The position numbers and the translations under genes were made by a program. Positions 2,474-58,869 of a stretch of DNA of 64,000 nt are shown one piece after another. The stretch comes from Sorex araneus (taxonomy: Eukaryota > Chordata > Mammalia > Eulipotyphla > Soricidae): assembly GCF_027595985.1 (NCBI RefSeq), contig NC_073307.1:47222509-47286508 (forward strand), read 5' to 3'. The notes under the pieces were generated by a model. That model was not told the origin of the DNA, did not search any database, and saw only the letters and a program-made list of their open reading frames with translations. Position 1 is the first letter of the stretch. The number at the start of each line of letters is the position of its first letter.

Positions 2474-2720
2474 CACTGTCACTGTCATCCTCATTGCTCA
2501 TCGATTTGCTCGAGCGGGCACCAGTAATGTCTCCATTGTGAGAATTGTTGTTACTGATTTTGGCATATCAATTACACCACGAGTAGCTTTCCAGGCTCTG
2601 TCATGTGGGCGAGATACTCTCGGTGGCTTGCCAGGCTCTTCGAGAGAGGCAGAGGAATCAAACCCGGGTTGGCCACATGCAAAGCAAACACCCTACCTGC
2701 TGTGCTATTGCTCCAGCCCC
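2474..2720 (-). mobile_element. Family B SINE (tRNA head + RTE-type tail)
   Basis: Full-length reverse copy: (tgtcac)n tail complement, GCTCATCGATTTGCTCGAGC, the ggcatat and gcgagatactctcgg blocks, then the tRNA-like head ending GCTATTGCTCCAGCCCC. Flanked by a perfect 10-base target-site duplication AAAATAATGT (2464-2473 and 2721-2730). Confidence 0.9.
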
Positions 2721-3365: not shown

Positions 3366-3903
3366 TTCCCATGCTCAAGGCTACTCTCCATACATTTGGA
3401 TGAGCCTCACACATGAAGGAACCGGCAGAGGAACCCAGGTGTGTGGGACCCAGGGCTGAGATCGTCAAGGCTGCTCAGATTGGGACTGAGCCCCTTCCAC
3501 CCATATTTCCCATTTTCCAGTAGTTAGGCAGTCACACCCAGAAACTGCCCCCGGCACCATGTAATCCCATCAACGGCCAACATCCAGAGACTATAAAACC
3601 AAGCTCCCAGAATATCTGATAGCCTAGTTCTCCCTCTTAGAGAACTGGCAAGCTACCAAGAGTTTACTGCCCGCACGAGGGAGAGCCTAGCAAGCTTCCC
3701 ATGGTGTATTTATATGCCAAATACAGTAACAAAGATGGGTCTCATTCCCCTGACCCTGAAGAGCCTCTAATGTGGTATCATTGGGAAGGACGAGTAAAGA
3801 GAGGCTTCTAAAATCTCAGGACTAGGATGAATAGAGACGTTACTGGGCCCACTTGAACAAATTGATGATAAATGGGATGACAGTGATACAGTGATACAGT
3901 GAC
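3366..3903 (+). mobile_element. Family C composite retroelement, copy 1 (5'-truncated)
   Basis: Shares with copies at 10797 and 17845 the blocks CATGAAGGAACCGGCAGAGG, 'ccaacatccagagactataa', 'gggtctcattcccctgaccc', 'gaaaggacgagtaaagagag' and a 3' end with AATTGATGATAAATGGGATG followed by (atacagtg)n. The 3' half resembles the body of family B SINEs; the extreme 3' end resembles the RTE fragment at 18596-19043. No tRNA-like head. Confidence 0.8.
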
Positions 3904-6110: not shown

Positions 6111-6282
6111 ACAGTAGCACTGTAACACTGTTGTCCCGATGTTCAACGATTTGCTCCAGCAGGCACCAGTAACATCTCCATTGTGAGACTTGCTGTTACT
6201 GTTTTTGGCATATCGAATACGCCACGGGGAGCTTGCGAGGCTCTGCTGTGCGGGCGGGATACTCTCAGTAGCTTATCCAGCC
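6111..6282 (-). mobile_element. Family B SINE, lacking its tRNA head
   Basis: Reverse copy with tail complement, AACGATTTGCTCCAGCAGGC, TTTTTGGCATATCGAATACG and GCGGGCGGGATACTCTCAGT. It breaks off after 'gtagcttatccag', so the tRNA-like head is missing, and L1 3' UTR-like sequence follows. Confidence 0.85.
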
Positions 6283-9394: not shown

Positions 9395-10325
9395 TATTGA
9401 ATTTTGTGGTTAAGTCCTTCTGTGTACTGTTACTGAATTTATATTCATAAGAGATACCGGTGTGTGATTTTTTCTTTCCGTAGCCTCTTAGTCTGGTTTG
9501 GCTATGAGTGTAAGACTGGTCTCAAGAATGAAAGTTGAGAAATACACCTTCCTCTTCAATTTTTGGAAGACTTCGTGAAGAATTGGTGTGGATGTTTCTT
9601 TAAATATTTAGTAGGATTAATCATTGAAGACATATGAGCTGTTCTCTATTTAGCACTGTTGTAGCACTGTTGTCCCATTGTTCATTAATTTGCTTGAGTG
9701 GGCACCAGTAACATCTCCATAGTGAGACTTGTTCTTATTGTTTTTGGCATATCGAATACACCATGGGGAACTTCTGGCTCTGCCTCGCGGGCGGGATACT
9801 CTCAGTAGCTTGCCGGGCTCTCCGAGGGGGATGGAGGAATTGAACCCAGGTTGGCTGTGTGCAAAGCAAACGTCCTATCCACTGTGCTATCGCTCCAGCC
9901 CGTTCTCAATGTATAGTTTTTATTTTTAATTACTTCAATCACTTTACTTGTTTCTGCCTTAGATGTTCTGCTTCTTATTGACATAGTTTTGACCATTTGT
10001 GTCTCTTAGGAACATGACCCTTTCACCTGAGTATTGTAATGTCCTGGCATACAGCCATTCGTGTTATCTTACAATCCCTCTTACTTCGGTAAGCTTGTAA
10101 TGTTCCCTCTTTCATTTCTTGATTTACTAAATTGAGCCTTCTTTCTTTTTCCCCTCGGTTATCTAGCTTAAAGGCACATCAATTCTGTTTATCCTTTCAA
10201 AGAATCAATCACTGATTTTTATTGACTTTATTCTATCTTGTTCATGTTAGTTTGGGTCTTTATTATTTTCTTCGACTTGCATTAAGCTTAGTTTATTATT
10301 CTTTCTCCAATGTTTTAAGATAGTG
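9395..10325 (-). mobile_element. Ancient L1 LINE ORF2 fragment, antisense, split by a SINE
   Basis: The plus strand reads like a reversed L1 ORF2: GAGATACCGGTGTGTGATTT, TTCAATTTTTGGAAGACTTC and GAATTGGTGTGGATGTTTCT before 9650. After the family B insertion come TCTTTCATTTCTTGATTTAC and CTGTTTATCCTTTCAAAGAA. No long reading frame remains. Confidence 0.8.
9651..9901 (-). mobile_element. Family B SINE inserted in an antisense L1
   Basis: Full-length reverse copy, ending GCTATCGCTCCAGCCC. Flanks carry GTTCTCTAT (from 9641) and GTTCTCAAT (from 9903), a likely short target-site duplication. The L1 ORF2-like sequence continues on both sides. Confidence 0.9.
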
Positions 10326-10796: not shown

Positions 10797-11561
10797 TTAA
10801 AAAACTTTATTTTAGGCACTGTGGCTAACAATAGGGTTCATGAGACAGTTTTATGCATAACACAACCCCTCAACATACCCTCTCCCAAAATGACCACCTT
10901 TTCAAATTTAGGGCGTTTAGCCCACATACTGGCTGTCTTCATTGGGGCCTTTCAGAGGGGATGACTCTAGTTTCCCTCCCTGCCCCGAGCAGAGCCCCCG
11001 CAGCCAAAGACCTCTGGAACCCAGCCACAGCCATGCTCAAGGCCCCTCTCCACACATTTGGACGAGCCTCACGCATGAAGGAACCGGCAGAGGAACCCAG
11101 GTGTGTGGGACCTGGGGTTGAGATCTCCAAGCCTGCTCAGATTGGACTGGGCCTCTTCTGCCCAGATCCCCCATATTCCAGAGGGTCACATGCAGAAACT
11201 GCCCCCGGCGCCATGTAATCCCATCAATGGCCAACATCCAGAGACTATAAAACCAAGCTCCTAGAAGCGCATGGCACTGACATCTTATAGCCTAGTTCTC
11301 CCTCTCGGAGAATATGACAAGCTACCGAGCGTTTCCTGCCCGCATGGGAGAGCCTGGCAAACTCCCTGTGGCATAGTCATATGCCAAGACCAGTAACAAT
11401 AATGGGTCTCATTTCCCTGACCCTGAAAGAGCCTCCAATGCGGCACCATTGGAAAGGACGAGTAAAGAGAGGCTTCTAAAATCTCAGAGCTAGGACAAAT
11501 GGAGACTTACTGAGACCGCTTGAGAAAATCAACGATCAATGGGATGATAATGGTGATGATG
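10797..11561 (+). mobile_element. Family C composite retroelement, copy 2 (longest)
   Basis: About 765 bases, starting near AAAAACTTTATTTTAGGCAC and ending with a degenerate GATAATGGTGATGATGAA tail. The 5' half has no similarity to the SINEs. The 3' half carries the CTACCGAG...GCCCGCATGGGAGAGCCTGG and TATGCCAAGACCAGTAACAA blocks found in family B. A frame on the + strand stays open from 10853 to 11218, and about 65 of its codons are also open in copy 3. Probably a non-autonomous RTE derivative. Confidence 0.8.
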
Positions 11562-12410: not shown

Positions 12411-12668
12411 AGGAGCGATAGCACAGCAGTAGGGCATTCGCCTTTCATGCGGCCGACCGGACCCGTGTTCGATTCCTCCACCCCTCTTGGAGAGCCCGGC
12501 AAGCTACCGAGAGTATCTCGCCCGCCCGGCAGAGCCTGTCAAGCTACCCGTGGTGTATTGGATATGCCAAAAACAGTAACAAGAAGTCTCTCAATGAGAG
12601 ATGTTACTGGTGCCTGCTCGAGCAAATCGATGAGCAATAGGATTCAGATATAATAATATAATAATAAT
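12411..12668 (+). mobile_element. Family B SINE, left arm of an inverted pair
   Basis: AGGAGCGATAGCACAGCAGT head, CTACCGAGAGTATCTCGCCC, and the unusual AACAAGAAGTCTCTCAATGA variant. RTE-type CTCGAGCAAATCGATGAGCA is followed by an AT-rich tail. It begins directly after the (AAT)n tail of a family A SINE. Its central ~125 bases are virtually identical to the inverted copy next door. Confidence 0.9.
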
Positions 12669-12906
12669 CACTGTCATCCCGTTGTTCATCGAGTTGTTCG
12701 AGCGGGCACCAGTAACGTCTCTCATTGAGAGACTTCTTGTTACTGTTTTTGGCATATCCAATACACCACGGGTAGCTTGACAGGCTCTGCCGGGCGGGCG
12801 AGATACTCTCGGTAGCTTGCCGGGCTCTCCGAGAGGAGCGGAGGAATCGAATACAGGTTGGCCACGTGAAAGGCGAAAGCCCAACCATTGTGCTATTGCT
12901 CCAGCA
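12669..12906 (-). mobile_element. Family B SINE, right arm of an inverted pair
   Basis: Reverse copy starting at the tail (atcactgtcatcccgttg) and ending GCTATTGCTCCAGC. It carries the same private variants as 12411-12668 (TCTCTCATTGAGAGACTTCT; GCCGGGCGGGCGAGATACTC), but the two heads differ at many sites. Confidence 0.9.
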
Positions 12907-16484: not shown

Positions 16485-16773
16485 GGACTGGAGCAATAGC
16501 AATAGCGTTTAATGGACTGGAGCAAGAGCAAGGCAAACAGGTAGGGCGTTTGCCTTGCATGTGGCTGACCTGGGTTCGATTCCTCCACCCCTCTTGAGAG
16601 CCCGACAAGCTACCGAGAGTATCCCGCACGCATGGCAGAGCCTGGCAAGCTACCCATGGCATATTCAATATGCCAAAAACAGTAACAACAAGTCTCACAA
16701 TGGAGACGTTACTGGTGCCCGCTCAGGTAAATCGATGAGCAATGGGATGACAGTGATACAGTGATACAGTGAT
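16485..16773 (+). mobile_element. Family B SINE with duplicated head start
   Basis: GACTGGAGCAATAGCAATAG at the start is followed 30 bases later by a second GGACTGGAGCAAGAGCAAGG, then an otherwise normal head, body and tail with three GATACAGT units. Follows a pyrimidine-rich microsatellite. Confidence 0.88.

Positions 16774-17844: not shown

Positions 17845-17891
<47 letters not shown>
17845..17891. repeat. (ATC)n microsatellite
   Basis: About 15 ATC units that form the 3' tail of family C copy 3. Confidence 0.95.
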
Positions 17892-17893
<2 letters not shown>

Positions 17894-18530
17894 GTTGATC
17901 GTCAAATTTCTCGAGCGGTCTCAGTAACATCTCCATTTGTCCTAGACCTGAAATTTTAGAAGCCTCTCTTTACTCATCCTTTCCAATGGTGCCACATTGG
18001 AGGCTCTTTCAGGGTCAGGGGAATGAGACCCATTATTGTTACTGTTTTTGGCATATAAATACAACACGGGGAGTTTGGGAGGCTCTCCATGTGGGCAGGA
18101 AACTCTCGGTAGATTGCCAGGCTCTCCCAGAGGGAGAGGCCATAAGATGAAGCAGCCGTGTGCTTCCAGGAGCTTGGTCTTATAGTCTCTGGATGTTGGC
18201 CATTGGTGGGATTACAAGGCGCTGGGGGCAGTCCCTGGGTGTGACTGCCTAGCTACTGGAAAATGGGGAATCTGGGCAGAAGAAGCCCAGTCCCAATCTG
18301 AGCAGGTTTGGAGGTCTCAGCCCCAGGTCCTGCACACCTGGGTTCCTCTGCTGGTTCCTTCATGCATGAGGCTCGTCCGAACATGTGGAGAGGGGCCTTG
18401 AGCATGGCTGTGGCTAGGCTCCGGAGGTCTTTGGCTGCGGGAGCTCTGCTTGGGGTAGGGAGGGAAGCTGAAGCCTCTGAGGGGCCTCGGGGAAGACAGC
18501 CAGGCAGGGGCAAGAGACTCTCTGCGTCGC
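17845..18530 (-). mobile_element. Family C composite retroelement, copy 3
   Basis: Reverse-strand copy. Its 3' tail is the (ATC)n/(GAT)n microsatellite at 17845-17891, followed by GATCGTCAAATTTCTCGAGC, then all the family C blocks in reverse order. The 5' end fades out near 18530 next to an AT microsatellite, beyond which the RTE fragment starts in the opposite orientation. Confidence 0.8.
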
Positions 18531-18595: not shown

Positions 18596-19043
18596 GGTAT
18601 TCCCAAATATTCGGGTATCCCAAAGAGGAATTGAAAGAGCTATGCTTGGAGTATCACATTCCATTCAAGTGAGAGAAGGAATCCAGAGTTCTGACCTCTA
18701 TCAACAATCAAGAATCAGGGACACTGTCTTGTTTGCCAAGGTGTCAATAATCAGATAGGCCGGACACGTAATGCGATTCAAAGATGACTGCTGGACTAGA
18801 GCTATCACTGACTGGATTCCACGGGATGTCAAAAGACCATGTGGCCGCCCAACTATAAGATGGTCAGACTTCTTCACCAAGACCCTGAGCAAACAGTTTG
18901 AGGCTCTTCATGTTCCTGGAGCGAGCAGACGCCAGTGGGCTACACTAGCATGCGACAGGGATGAATGGAAACGTTACTAGCACCCACTCGAGCAAATCGA
19001 TGAATAACAGGATGACAAGTGGTACAAGTGATACACATATATA
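18596..19043 (+). mobile_element. RTE-clade LINE, 3' fragment of ORF2 plus 3' tail
   Basis: One frame (codons in phase with 18564) reads through a reverse-transcriptase C-terminal region: IERAMLGVSHSIQ, IRDTVLFAK, AGHVMRF, DCWTRAITDWIPRD, KRPCGRPTIRWSD (18831-18869), then ACDRDEWKRY. The AGH..R, PRD.KRP.GRP..RW and RDEW motifs are typical of RTE elements of nematodes. Stops lie at 18756-18758 and 18978-18980 (both TAG where TGG is expected) and 19005-19007 (TAA). The end carries CTCGAGCAAATCGATGAATA and a short-repeat tail (ggtacaagtgatacaca). It is 5'-truncated, starting after an AT-rich microsatellite. The last 60 bases are shared with the family B and C elements here. From memory, an RTE transferred between nematodes and the common shrew has been published; this is probably a copy. 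Confidence 0.82.
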
Positions 19044-43877: not shown

Positions 43878-44317
43878 TTTTTTTTTTTCTTTTTTGAAGG
43901 GGACTGGAGCAATAGCACAGCGGGTAGGGTATTTGCCTTGCGTGTGGCCGACCCAGATTCGATTCCTCTGTCCCTCTCAAAGAGCCTGGCAAGCTATTGA
44001 GAGTATCCTGCCCGCAGGAGGCAGAGCCTGGCAAGCTACCCGTGGCGTGTTCGATATGCCAAAAACAGTAACGAGTCTCACATCACAATGGAGACATTAC
44101 TGGTGCCCGCTCAAGCAAATCAATAAACAGCGGGACCACAGTGCTACAGTGCTTTTTGAAGGTCACACCCAGCATTGCACAGGGGTCATTCCTGGCTCAT
44201 GCACTCAGGAATCACTCCTGGTGGTGCTTGGGGGACCATATGGGAAGCTGGGAATCGAACCCGGGCCAGCCATGTGCAAGGCAAATGCCCTACCTGCTGT
44301 GCTGTCACTCCAGCCCC
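43878..44317 (-). mobile_element. Family A SINE split by a family B insertion
   Basis: The poly(T) end is at 43878-43900 and the rest at 44152-44317 (GGTCACACCCAGCATTGCAC ... CTGTCACTCCAGCCCC). The family B SINE at 43901-44151 lies between the halves. Confidence 0.88.
43901..44151 (+). mobile_element. Family B SINE nested inside a family A SINE
   Basis: Full-length copy ending GACCACAGTGCTACAGTGC. Flanked by CTTTTTTGAAGG (43889-43900) and CTTTTTGAAGG (44152-44162), a target-site duplication. It interrupts the poly(T) end of an antisense family A SINE, so this B insertion is younger than that A copy. Confidence 0.9.
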
Positions 44318-52035: not shown

Positions 52036-53125
52036 CAGTGCGGCTGGCCACATGCAAGGAAATGAATGCAGACCCTTTTCTAACACCAGGCACAAAAAAG
52101 TCAGATCAAAATGGATTAAGGACTTCCGTGTCAGACCTGCATCCGTAAGTTACATTGAGGAAAACATAGGCAGAACTCTCCATGCCATTGAAGCTAGAGG
52201 CATCTTTAAGGATTCGACACCACTGGCCAAGCAAGTGGAAATAAAGGTAAACAAATGGGACTACATTAAATTAAGAAGCTTCTGTACTTCTAAGGGAAGA
52301 AGGAACAGAATGCAGAATACAAAGACAGCCCACACACTGGGAGAAATTATTTGCCCACCACTCATCTGAGAATGGGTTAATATCCAAATTATATAAAGCA
52401 GTGGTAGAATTTTACAAGAAAAAAAAAAAAGTCCAACCCCATCAGAAACTACAGAGAAGAGAAATTTCTTCAAAGAAATAGAAATGAATGGAAATTTCTT
52501 CAAAGAAGAAATACAAATGGGCAAACGGCACATGGAGAAGTGCTCTGCATCATTAATCACCAGGGAGATGCAAATTAAAACAATGAGATAACACTTCACA
52601 CCAGAGACGCTGGCACACATCAAACAGAACAAAAACAACCAGTGCCCGCACCACTGCAGCTCGGGTGGGAAACCCTCATTCACTGCTGGTGGGATGCCAA
52701 CTGGTCCAGCTTTATGGAAAACAACATGGATATTCCTCAAACAACTAGGTATCGACCTCGCATATGTCCAGCAGTTCCACTTTCTGAAATGTACCTTAGG
52801 GCCCCAAACACATCACTGTCACTGTCATCCCGTTGCTCATCGATTTGTTCGAGTGGGCACCAGTAACATCTCACATTGTGAGACTTATTGTTACTGTTTT
52901 TTTGGCATATCCAATACGTCACAGGTAGCTTGCCAGGCTCTGCCGTGGGGGTGCGATACTCTCGGTAGCTTGCCGGGCTCTCCAAGAGGAGCGGAGGAAT
53001 TGAACACGGGTCAGCCGCATGAAAGGCGAATGCCCTACCGCTGTGCTGTCACTCCAGCCCAAAACACAACACAGAGAAGACATTTGTAACTCTTATGTTT
53101 ATTGTAGCTCTATTCACCACAGTCC
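52036..53125 (+). mobile_element. L1 LINE, 3' end of ORF2, interrupted by a SINE
   Basis: Frames read LATCKEMNADPFLTPGTKKS, then DYIKLRSFCTSKGRR, HTLGEIICPP and LIHCWWDAN, which match the end of L1 ORF2 in order. Downstream come CAAATTAAAACAATGAGATA and ATGTTTATTGTAGCTCTATT, standard 3'-terminal L1 sequence. It is 5'-truncated near 52036 and has several frameshifts. The family B SINE at 52812-53060 splits it. Confidence 0.85.
52812..53060 (-). mobile_element. Family B SINE inserted in a sense L1
   Basis: Full-length reverse copy from the (tcactg)n tail complement to CACTCCAGCCC. The L1 ORF2/3' sequence resumes after it; an approximate 8-base duplication (caaacaca / aaaacaca) flanks it. Confidence 0.9.
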
Positions 53126-54775: not shown

Positions 54776-55291
54776 TGAGTGATAGAGGTCATAGGGATGA
54801 GTGATGGAGGGGGTAGAGGTGACGGAGGTGATGGTAGGGGTGAGTGATGAGGTTGTGGGGTGAGTGATGAGGTGGTAGGGGTGAGTGATGGAGGTGGTAG
54901 GGGTGAGTGGTGGAGGTGGTAGGGGTTGAGGATGGATGTGGTAGGGGTGAGTGGTGAGGTGGTAGGGGTGAGTGATGGAGGTGGTAGGGGTGAAAATGAA
55001 GGTGATAGGGGTGAGGATAGAGGTCGTAGGAATGAGTGATGGAAGTGATAGGGATGAGTGATGGAGGTGGTAGAGGTGACAGAGGTGATGGTAGGGGTGA
55101 GTGATGAGGTGGTGGGGTGAGTGATGAGGTGGTAGGTGTGAGTGATGGAGGTGGTAAGGGTGAGGATAGAGGTGGTAGGGATAAGTGGTGAGGTGGTAGG
55201 GGTGAGTGATGAGGTGGTAGGGGTGAGTGGTGAGGTGGCAGGGGTGAGTGATGGAGGTGGTAGGGGTGAGTGATGGAGGTGGCAGGGGTGG
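54776..55291. repeat. Minisatellite, GGTGAGTGATGGAGGTGGTA-type units
   Basis: About 25 units of roughly 18-22 bases built from GGTGAGTGATG(GA)GGTGGTAG, with higher-order variants (a ggtgacagaggtgatggtag segment occurs twice, near 54817 and 55074). Purine/G-rich on the + strand. All three minus frames stay open for long stretches only because the units lack stops there. Confidence 0.92.
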
Positions 55292-56982: not shown

Positions 56983-57820
56983 GAGGAGTGTAGGGGTGTG
57001 AGGGTGTGTAAGCATGTGTGAGGGTTGTGAGAGGGGGTGAGGGTGTATAGGGGGCTGTGAGGGCTTGTAGGGTGTGCAGGAGTATGTGAGGGGTATGTAG
57101 GGTGTTGGAGGGGTGTGTGTAGGGTATGTGTGTTTGTAGGGGTGCAAGGGTGTGTAGGGGTGTGAGGGTGTGTAGGGATGTGTGAGAGGAGTAGAGGCAT
57201 GTGTAGGGGGTATTTGAGAGGAGTGGAGGGGTGTGTAGGGGTGTGTGAAGGAGTGGAGGGATGTGGAGGGGTGTGTAGGGGCATATGAGGGAGTGGAGGG
57301 GTGTGGAGGGGCCTTTGAGAAGAATGGAGAGGTATTTAGGGGCATGTGATGGAGTGGAGGGCTGTGTAGGGGCTTGTGAGAAGAGTGGAGGGGTGTGTAG
57401 GGGCATGTGAGGAAGTGGAGGGATGTGTAGGGGCATGTGAGGAAATGGAGGAGTATGTAGAGGCGTGTGAGGGAGGGGAGGGTTTTGTAGAGGCATGTGA
57501 GGGAGTGGAGGGATGTGGGGGGGGGCGTGTGAGGGAGTGGAGAAGTATGTAGGGGCGTGTGAGGGAGTGGAGGGGCGTGTGAGGGAATAGAGAAGTATGT
57601 AGGGGCATGTGAGGGAGTGGAGGGGTGTGGAAGGGCGTGTGAGGGAGTGGAGGGGTGTGTGAGGGAGTGGACGGGCGTGGAGGGGAGTAGAGGGGTATGT
57701 AGGGGCGCGTGAGGGAGTGGAGGAGTATGTAGGGGCGTGTGAGGCAGTGGAGGGGTGTGTAGGGGCGTGTGAGGGAGTGGAGTGGTGTGGAGGGGCGTGT
57801 GAGGGAGTGGAGGGGTGTGG
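56983..57820. repeat. 30-base minisatellite (GGAGTGGAGGGGTGTGTAGG core)
   Basis: About 28 units of mostly 30 bases, consensus like gtgtgtaggggcgtgtgagg plus gagtggaggg, more degenerate at the 5' end (56983-57180). Because 30 is a multiple of three and the unit lacks minus-strand stops, the minus strand shows repeated decapeptides (LPHTPLHTPP). No coding function is inferred. Confidence 0.93.
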
Positions 57821-58480: not shown

Positions 58481-58557
58481 CCGTAGACGCTCCGGTTGTC
58501 ACTCTCTTCCCCCCTATGCTCTGACCCCACCTTTTTCCCATCACTATAAATAGCTTT

Positions 58558-58802
58558 GAGCTGGAGTGATGGTAGCACAGCGGGTAGGGCATTTGCCTTT
58601 CACACGACCAACCCGGGTTCGATTCCTCCGTCCCTCTGGAGAGCCCGGCAAGCTACCGAGAGTATCCCGCCCGCACGGCAGAGCCTGGCAAGCTCCCCGT
58701 GGCATATTCGATATGCCAAAAACAGTAACAAGTCTCACAAGGGAGACGTTACTGGTGCCCGCTCGAGCAAATCGATGAACGACGAGATGACGGTGCAATA
58801 TG
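58558..58802 (+). mobile_element. Family B SINE
   Basis: Full-length copy with a TRGC-type A box, GGTTCGATTCC B box, CTACCGAGAGTATCCCGCCC and CTCGAGCAAATCGATGAACG. The target-site duplication is AATAGCTTT (58549-58557 and 58803-58811). Confidence 0.92.
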
Positions 58803-58869
58803 AATAGCTTTCACATTCACATACCGGGCTGTTTCTCTCGGACCCCCTTCTGCACTCTGTTCTGGTGAT

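Follow-up and report, generated by a model that had tools for sequence, protein, structure and literature searches.

A tRNA-headed SINE family of Sorex araneus with a bipartite RTE-derived body, most likely driven by RTE

SINEs mobilised by AviRTE in birds carry varied promoter heads on a bipartite tail composed of the RTE 5' and 3' UTRs, and AviRTE itself is common to birds and nematodes through horizontal transfer, according to the available text of PMC4844689 (Nat Commun 2016). In the hagfish, SINE1-1_EBu and its relatives join a segment of an RTE 5' UTR to an RTE 3' end, and the accessible sections of the report on them (PMC7245038, Mob DNA 2020) describe non-autonomous bipartite RTEs as common, with heads sometimes gained. 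For mammals, Table 1 of PMC3747384 pairs Bov-tA and Bov-A2 with BovB in ruminants and also lists RTESINE1 and MAR4 in marsupials; Bov-tA has a tRNA head, and Bov-A2, RTESINE1 and MAR4 have a 5' RTE end. The main text of that paper never mentions the shrew or Sorex. For RTE1_Sar, an RTE abundant in Sorex araneus, horizontal transfer involving strongylid nematodes and the shrew has been reported (PMC6542046, Mob DNA 2019), in an article whose available text never mentions a SINE. As far as the accessible parts of these sources extend, SINEs with such a two-part RTE body have been described from birds, hagfish and mammals other than the shrew, and the family described here, family B, is a further case, in the shrew. 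The shrew pairing of B with its RTE, the common head and the headless relative were not found in the accessible parts of the literature searched; Kojima 2018, reportedly on LINE-derived SINE bodies, Repbase or SINEBase may list them.

The window, that is, the whole stretch of 64,000 bases analysed here (GC 0.54), contains nine family B copies, the number given in an initial annotation; eight carry a head and one does not (Table 1). The copy at 58558 is bounded by a 13-nt target-site duplication with one mismatch, and the element therefore spans positions 58558–58798. In the frame translated by the initial annotation it reads GRRYWCPLEQIDERRDD, as claimed there. Family B is tripartite, consisting of a tRNA-type head, approximately 110 nt of RTE 5' leader, and approximately 55 nt of RTE 3' end with a short tail. 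The initial annotation had described B as consisting of a tRNA head and the RTE 3' end; both parts stand, but the description is incomplete as anatomy because the leader of about 110 nt lies between them. Taking all the evidence presented below, we are highly confident in describing B as a SINE that combines the tRNA-type head of family A with a bipartite body of RTE origin, most likely driven by RTE and preceded by a headless stage designated RTE-N.

Table 1. Coordinates of the family B copy at 58558 and of related elements in the window
Position	Strand	Feature	Remark
58545..58557	+	5' target-site duplication TATAAATAGCTTT	Pairs with 58799–58811, one mismatch
58558..58624	+	tRNA-type pol III head, A box TAGCACAGCGGG, B box GGTTCGATTCC; common to family A	A/B consensus heads 62/63 nt
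58625..58737	+	RTE 5'-leader segment (directly upstream of RTE ORF), end near GTCTCA	Aligned in 20/20 RTE 5' loci; consensus 106/111 nt
58739..58798	+	RTE 3' end (last ORF codons) and short tail	Consensus 55/57 nt and one gap
58799..58811	+	3' target-site duplication TATGAATAGCTTT	
2480..2709	-	Family B copy	Target-site duplication ACATTATTTT
6141..6274	-	Headless family B copy	
9664..9901	-	Family B copy	
12413..12643	+	Family B copy, subgroup B2	
12669..12900	-	Family B copy, subgroup B2	Inverted beside the 12413..12643 copy
16530..16755	+	Family B copy	
43902..44144	+	Family B copy	Target-site duplication TTTTTGAAGG
52820..53060	-	Family B copy, subgroup B2	
3369..3885	+	Family C copy, 5' part missing	
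10929..11560	+	Family C: head of about 370 nt, RTE leader, RTE 3' end	
17874..18503	-	Family C copy	
18608..19035 (ends approximate)	+	5'-truncated RTE copy: C-terminal ORF fragment and native 3' end	B-matching from 18964

The consensus heads of families A and B are identical at 62 of 63 nt, with one base different. Scored against the pol III box consensuses, the A box had at most one mismatch in 34 of 38 B copies (exact in 22) and the B box at most one mismatch in 31 of 38 (exact in 15); neither TTTT nor AATAAA occurs in the B1 consensus. Family A, probably SOR, has a different body without RTE sequence and an A-rich tail, and B has only the head in common with it. The published Soricidae SINE probe and reverse primer show 2 and 0 mismatches to the A consensus, against 7 and 7 to that of B, a fit that by itself makes a shrew the most likely host; the available text of their source (PMC8608897) lists the Soricidae SINE as SA_Ba-325L16, with which we equate family A. 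The assignment of B to the SOR-type (family A) SINEs was rejected, as B is without the family A body and A-rich tail and does not fit the probe and primer. Family A would have donated its head to B, rather than the reverse. A-tailed family A SINEs also sit within RTE copies at L011, L016, L017 and L020, and those insertions consequently postdate the RTE copies that contain them. Scanning the window for tRNAs gave no gene.

For the RTE 5' region, a search was conducted from a second RTE piece with an ORF start, which L017 carries on the opposite strand, and 20 loci were sampled from 40 listed places, the known one included. As the query contained only approximately the last 18 bases of the B leader segment, retrieval was independent of that segment. 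In all 20 loci (partially in L061, L063 and L070), segment 68–174 of B aligned immediately upstream of the RTE ORF, and the leader consensuses of B and RTE agreed at 106 of 111 nt (alignment score 197; 200 shuffles of B reached at most 26). At the other end of the element, the B and RTE consensuses agreed at 55 of 57 nt with one gap (alignment score 99; the 200 shuffles of B reached at most 25). The RTE protein matched the reverse-transcriptase domain RVT_1 (PF00078) with an E value of 1.4e-14; the match to the endonuclease Exo_endo_phos (PF03372; E 1.4e-4, 22.1 bits) fell short of the curated cut-off, 24.5, and no Pfam family was matched by two more C-terminal pieces of the RTE. On its motifs and on the naming in the initial annotation, the partner LINE probably belongs to the RTE clade. 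In L054 and L066 the RTE 3' end follows the ORF start after only about 1.6 and 1.1 kb, respectively, so that these two copies are probably internally deleted.

A joined query of leader and 3' end returned 41 listed places, of which nine were examined: eight matched the query nearly over its full length (85–92% identity) and the ninth from nt 60 onwards. Eight of the nine examined places had the junction of B with the RTE 5' UTR replacing the tRNA head; in L097 only the last 50 nt or so of this UTR were present, and in L091 and L093 it extended far upstream. The headless copies also had 8-nt tail units. These elements would fit an internal deletion that was followed by head capture. The most likely sequence of events would begin with an RTE losing its middle to yield a headless element of 5' and 3' parts, RTE-N, which would then gain a SINE head through template switching or recombination. 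The resulting B element is predicted to be transcribed by pol III from its head; the RTE protein would recognise the B 3' end, nick the target DNA and copy the RNA by reverse transcription, and insertion driven in this way would be expected to leave duplications of approximately 9–15 nt and no A-tail. The SINE lineage would in this manner have switched its driver, from L1 in family A to RTE in family B.

Alternatively, B could have been born in one step through template switching between SINE and RTE RNAs, in which case RTE-N would not be its parent and the headless copies would be later recombinants between B and RTE. This possibility weighs against the preferred order, since L060 shows the reverse arrangement: at positions 1372–1640, a tRNA-type head without a B box is fused to an RTE leader running into the RTE ORF, which shows that head–RTE junctions do form and leaves the direction from RTE-N to B unproved. 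Moreover, because the headless copies and B have a common junction and tail, the direction cannot be read from them. However, the junction of B recurs in at least eight headless places, some of them with the long RTE 5' UTR of L091 and L093, which is more than single accidents would be expected to leave, and we consider a one-step origin unlikely, though it is the strongest competitor of deletion followed by head capture. A family of head-bearing, ORF-carrying RTEs was considered and dropped, as L060 itself was the only one among 40 listed places to cover the head.

The other body and A-rich tail of family A made it possible to compare its insertions with those of B. The comparison covered 285,826 bases with 38 full B copies, seven of which had been retrieved through matching B; L051 was excluded from the family A count because it repeats the DNA of L017. 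A duplication score of at least 9 was obtained in 16 of the 38 B copies and in none of the mismatched pairings, and in 41 of 102 family A copies at a mismatch rate of about 1%. For RTE, the 20 of 30 loci with a placeable 5' end yielded five such duplications with a mismatch control of about 5%, a weak signature from a sample too small to fix it by itself; this, and the fact that only 16 of 38 B copies show a clear duplication, speak against our explanation. Duplications started with AA in 25 of 41 cases in family A vs 2 of 16 in B (Fisher p 0.0011) and in 0 of 5 in RTE, and their mean length was 14.7 nt in A vs 11.75 nt in B (p 0.00024), the five RTE duplications measuring 9–14 nt. Furthermore, an A-run of at least 6 came after 48 of 102 copies in family A, compared with 1 of 38 in B.

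From the AA starts and A-runs of A as against B, family A looks L1-driven and B does not, and we infer that L1 is the driver of family A. B, in turn, was most likely moved by the RTE whose 3' end it carries. The opposing view, in which L1 moves B just as it moves family A and the RTE pieces are mere passengers, is favoured by the head common to the two families but conflicts with the near absence of A-runs after B copies and with duplications that are shorter and rarely start with AA; in addition, other RTE derivatives (family C and L095) retain a nearly identical 3' piece without the B head. We therefore regard transport of B by L1 as very improbable.

The RTE fragment reported by the initial annotation is real, with stop codons where they had been marked (Table 1). 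Using this fragment as a query, 30 loci (L009–L038, including the window copy) were sampled from 40 listed places; the query comprised 366 nt, of which the final 42 lie inside the end common to B, an overlap that counts against our explanation. All 30 loci had one common 3' end followed by unrelated flank. A profile built from the window B copies found this RTE 3' end in 29 of 29 non-window loci, in each case with the ORF upstream and unrelated flank downstream, and neither head nor leader lay directly before it. The end is thus native to RTE. Hence the notion that a B SINE inserted near the 3' end of one RTE copy created the likeness, suggested by the abundance of B and by the single RTE copy that the window offers, can practically be discarded in view of 29 other loci that have this end at this position. 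The initial annotation had anticipated a common 3' end of about 60 bases, of which about 55 nt were found, and had named as the contrary outcome an RTE consensus ending unlike B, which did not occur. Its proposal that RTE is the probable mobiliser of B is supported by these native ends, as a partnership read from sequence.

The RTE ORF extends to the tail (...RRYWRPLEQIDEQRDDK before the stop), with its TGA stop within the first tail unit and an earlier TAA in many copies. As the ORF reaches the tail, its last codons contain the recognition end, and B "keeps codons" because the two are the same bases. Folding of the 3' end into a special RNA structure was considered and dropped, as the predicted folds were no better than those of shuffles (z -0.75 for B, +0.74 for RTE). 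The initial annotation had emphasised that about 20 LINE codons are kept in frame; no function was shown for them, and they are inherited sequence, frameshifted in 14 of 42 B copies and carrying an in-frame stop in 8. Changes in B fell at codon positions 1, 2 and 3 in 82, 49 and 97 cases (p 0.0003), and this shortage at second positions would favour use of the codons, with B encoding, or being selected for, an RTE C-terminal peptide. However, the dead RTE and C ends show the same minimum at second positions (109, 63 and 93 changes; p 0.0006; n=39, with 7 frameshifted and 24 with a stop), so that composition suffices as an explanation, and the head gives no reading frame; we give such a coding role next to no credence.

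Among the 32 distinct RTE ends first examined (L051 excluded), 30 carried a 9-nt tail unit, ACAAGTGAT or a variant of it, while two had an 8-nt unit, which argues against our explanation since the B unit has 8 nt; the 38 B tails had ACAGTGCT in 16 copies, ACAGTGAT in 11, ACAGTGACAG in 5 and other units in 6. A targeted search from one 8-nt RTE copy covered 12 of 40 listed places and yielded the 8-nt unit ACAGTGAT in eight, a 9-nt unit in two, one unclear and one incomplete end. All eight 8-nt ends had the earlier TAA, as did the query and both 9-nt copies. ACAGTGCT, the commoner unit of B, was not seen among the ORF-bearing RTE ends examined. Consequently, the microsatellite that the initial annotation expected to be the same in both was found in part, as ACAGTGAT occurs in B and in a subgroup of RTE, but most of the RTE ends first examined have the 9-nt unit and ACAGTGCT was not seen there. 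The base by which the 9-nt RTE unit forms its TGA stop is missing from the B tail unit. The 9-nt period may hold the stop codon in frame, and the unit could shrink once the stop shifts upstream or coding is lost.

By median non-CpG K2P, B and RTE are of similar age: 0.076 for B1 (n=30), 0.052 for B2 (n=8) and 0.070 for the RTE 3' end (n=30), in samples ranked by similarity, which biases these divergences. The corresponding value for family A was 0.147 (n=102), including badly aligned copies with K2P up to 0.54. In a first look at the genome, B had 5431 candidate matches and the RTE 3' end had 8067, figures that are not copy numbers. Subgroup B2 (n=8) comprises the window copies at 12413, 12669 and 52820 together with L003, L007, L012, L042 and L047. 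The B2 copies show an altered stem at the junction of leader and 3' end (GTCTC..AATGAGAGAC and variants), which is longer in some of them; eight copies are too few for a covariation test. In the inverted pair at 12413–12900, leader and tail are alike (152/159 columns) but the heads are not (45/62), and sequence may have been exchanged there through gene conversion. The window also contains long G-rich minisatellites at 54776–55290 and 56988–57819, with a period of 21 (about 24 copies) and periods of 10, 30 and 60.

Family C has a head of approximately 370 nt, followed by approximately 190 nt of leader and then the RTE 3' end. Its head (window 10929–11298; loci L082–L088) contains GACTATAAAACC, and its source was not found here. 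The C head retrieved seven loci, and in six of them the leader comes immediately after it; the copy in L087 breaks off first, and the second C copy of that locus has the leader. The 3' end was detected at the match threshold in three of those six loci and in the second L087 copy, and the RTE ORF start followed the C head in 0 of 7 loci. Compared with the 20 RTE 5' copies, one C copy showed 72–82% identity and one B copy 79–96%, from which B is unlikely to descend from C. L095 represents a further, single headless RTE derivative, with a junction unlike that of B and the tail ACAGTGAT. By eye, the 3' pieces of B, C and L095 begin within approximately 10 bases of one another, and this nearly fixed start may be the edge of a minimal recognition element.

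Since the head of family A sits on an RTE-derived body, the lineage would have changed its driver from L1 to RTE. In the broadest reading, the head of an L1-driven shrew SINE joined a deletion derivative of an RTE from a parasitic nematode, the hybrid multiplied and the headless intermediate persists, with the 3' starts of B/RTE-N, C and L095, all within about 10 bases, marking the minimal RTE-recognised element inside the last codons. We favour this reading with moderate confidence only, because L095 stands for a single copy and a single-copy comparison underlies the separateness of C. A nearly fixed start of the 3' piece would imply a short, defined RNA element for template recognition by RTE that overlaps coding sequence, and the recurrence of the design of 5' leader plus 3' end bears on why RTE SINEs retain a 5' piece. 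Furthermore, as the genome retains the ORF-bearing RTE, the headless derivative and the headed SINE, the order of their birth is testable. The case is of moderate interest for the probable change of driver and for the possible nematode origin of the new one.

Compared with the systems described in the accessible parts of the literature, B differs from SA_Ba-325L16 (family A), which has the same head but another body, an A-rich tail and L1-type insertion marks. Bov-tA, Bov-A2, RTESINE1 and MAR4 are likewise mammalian members of SINE/RTE pairs, but their RTEs are different. The hagfish SINEs have 7SL or UCON3/tRNA heads and involve other RTEs, whereas the shrew also has headless copies in which the junction is that of the SINE itself. 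On the grounds of host and abundance, the RTE analysed here is probably RTE1_Sar, both being abundant RTEs of a shrew genome. If the two are the same, family B would be a mammalian parallel to the AviRTE SINEs of birds, in which a LINE in common with nematodes yields a SINE in its new host, here with the head of a resident A-tailed SINE. The AviRTE SINEs resemble B in their bipartite body of RTE 5' and 3' parts, but they belong to another RTE family and to birds, whereas B combines the head of an A-tailed SINE of the same genome with a 3' piece that is coding.
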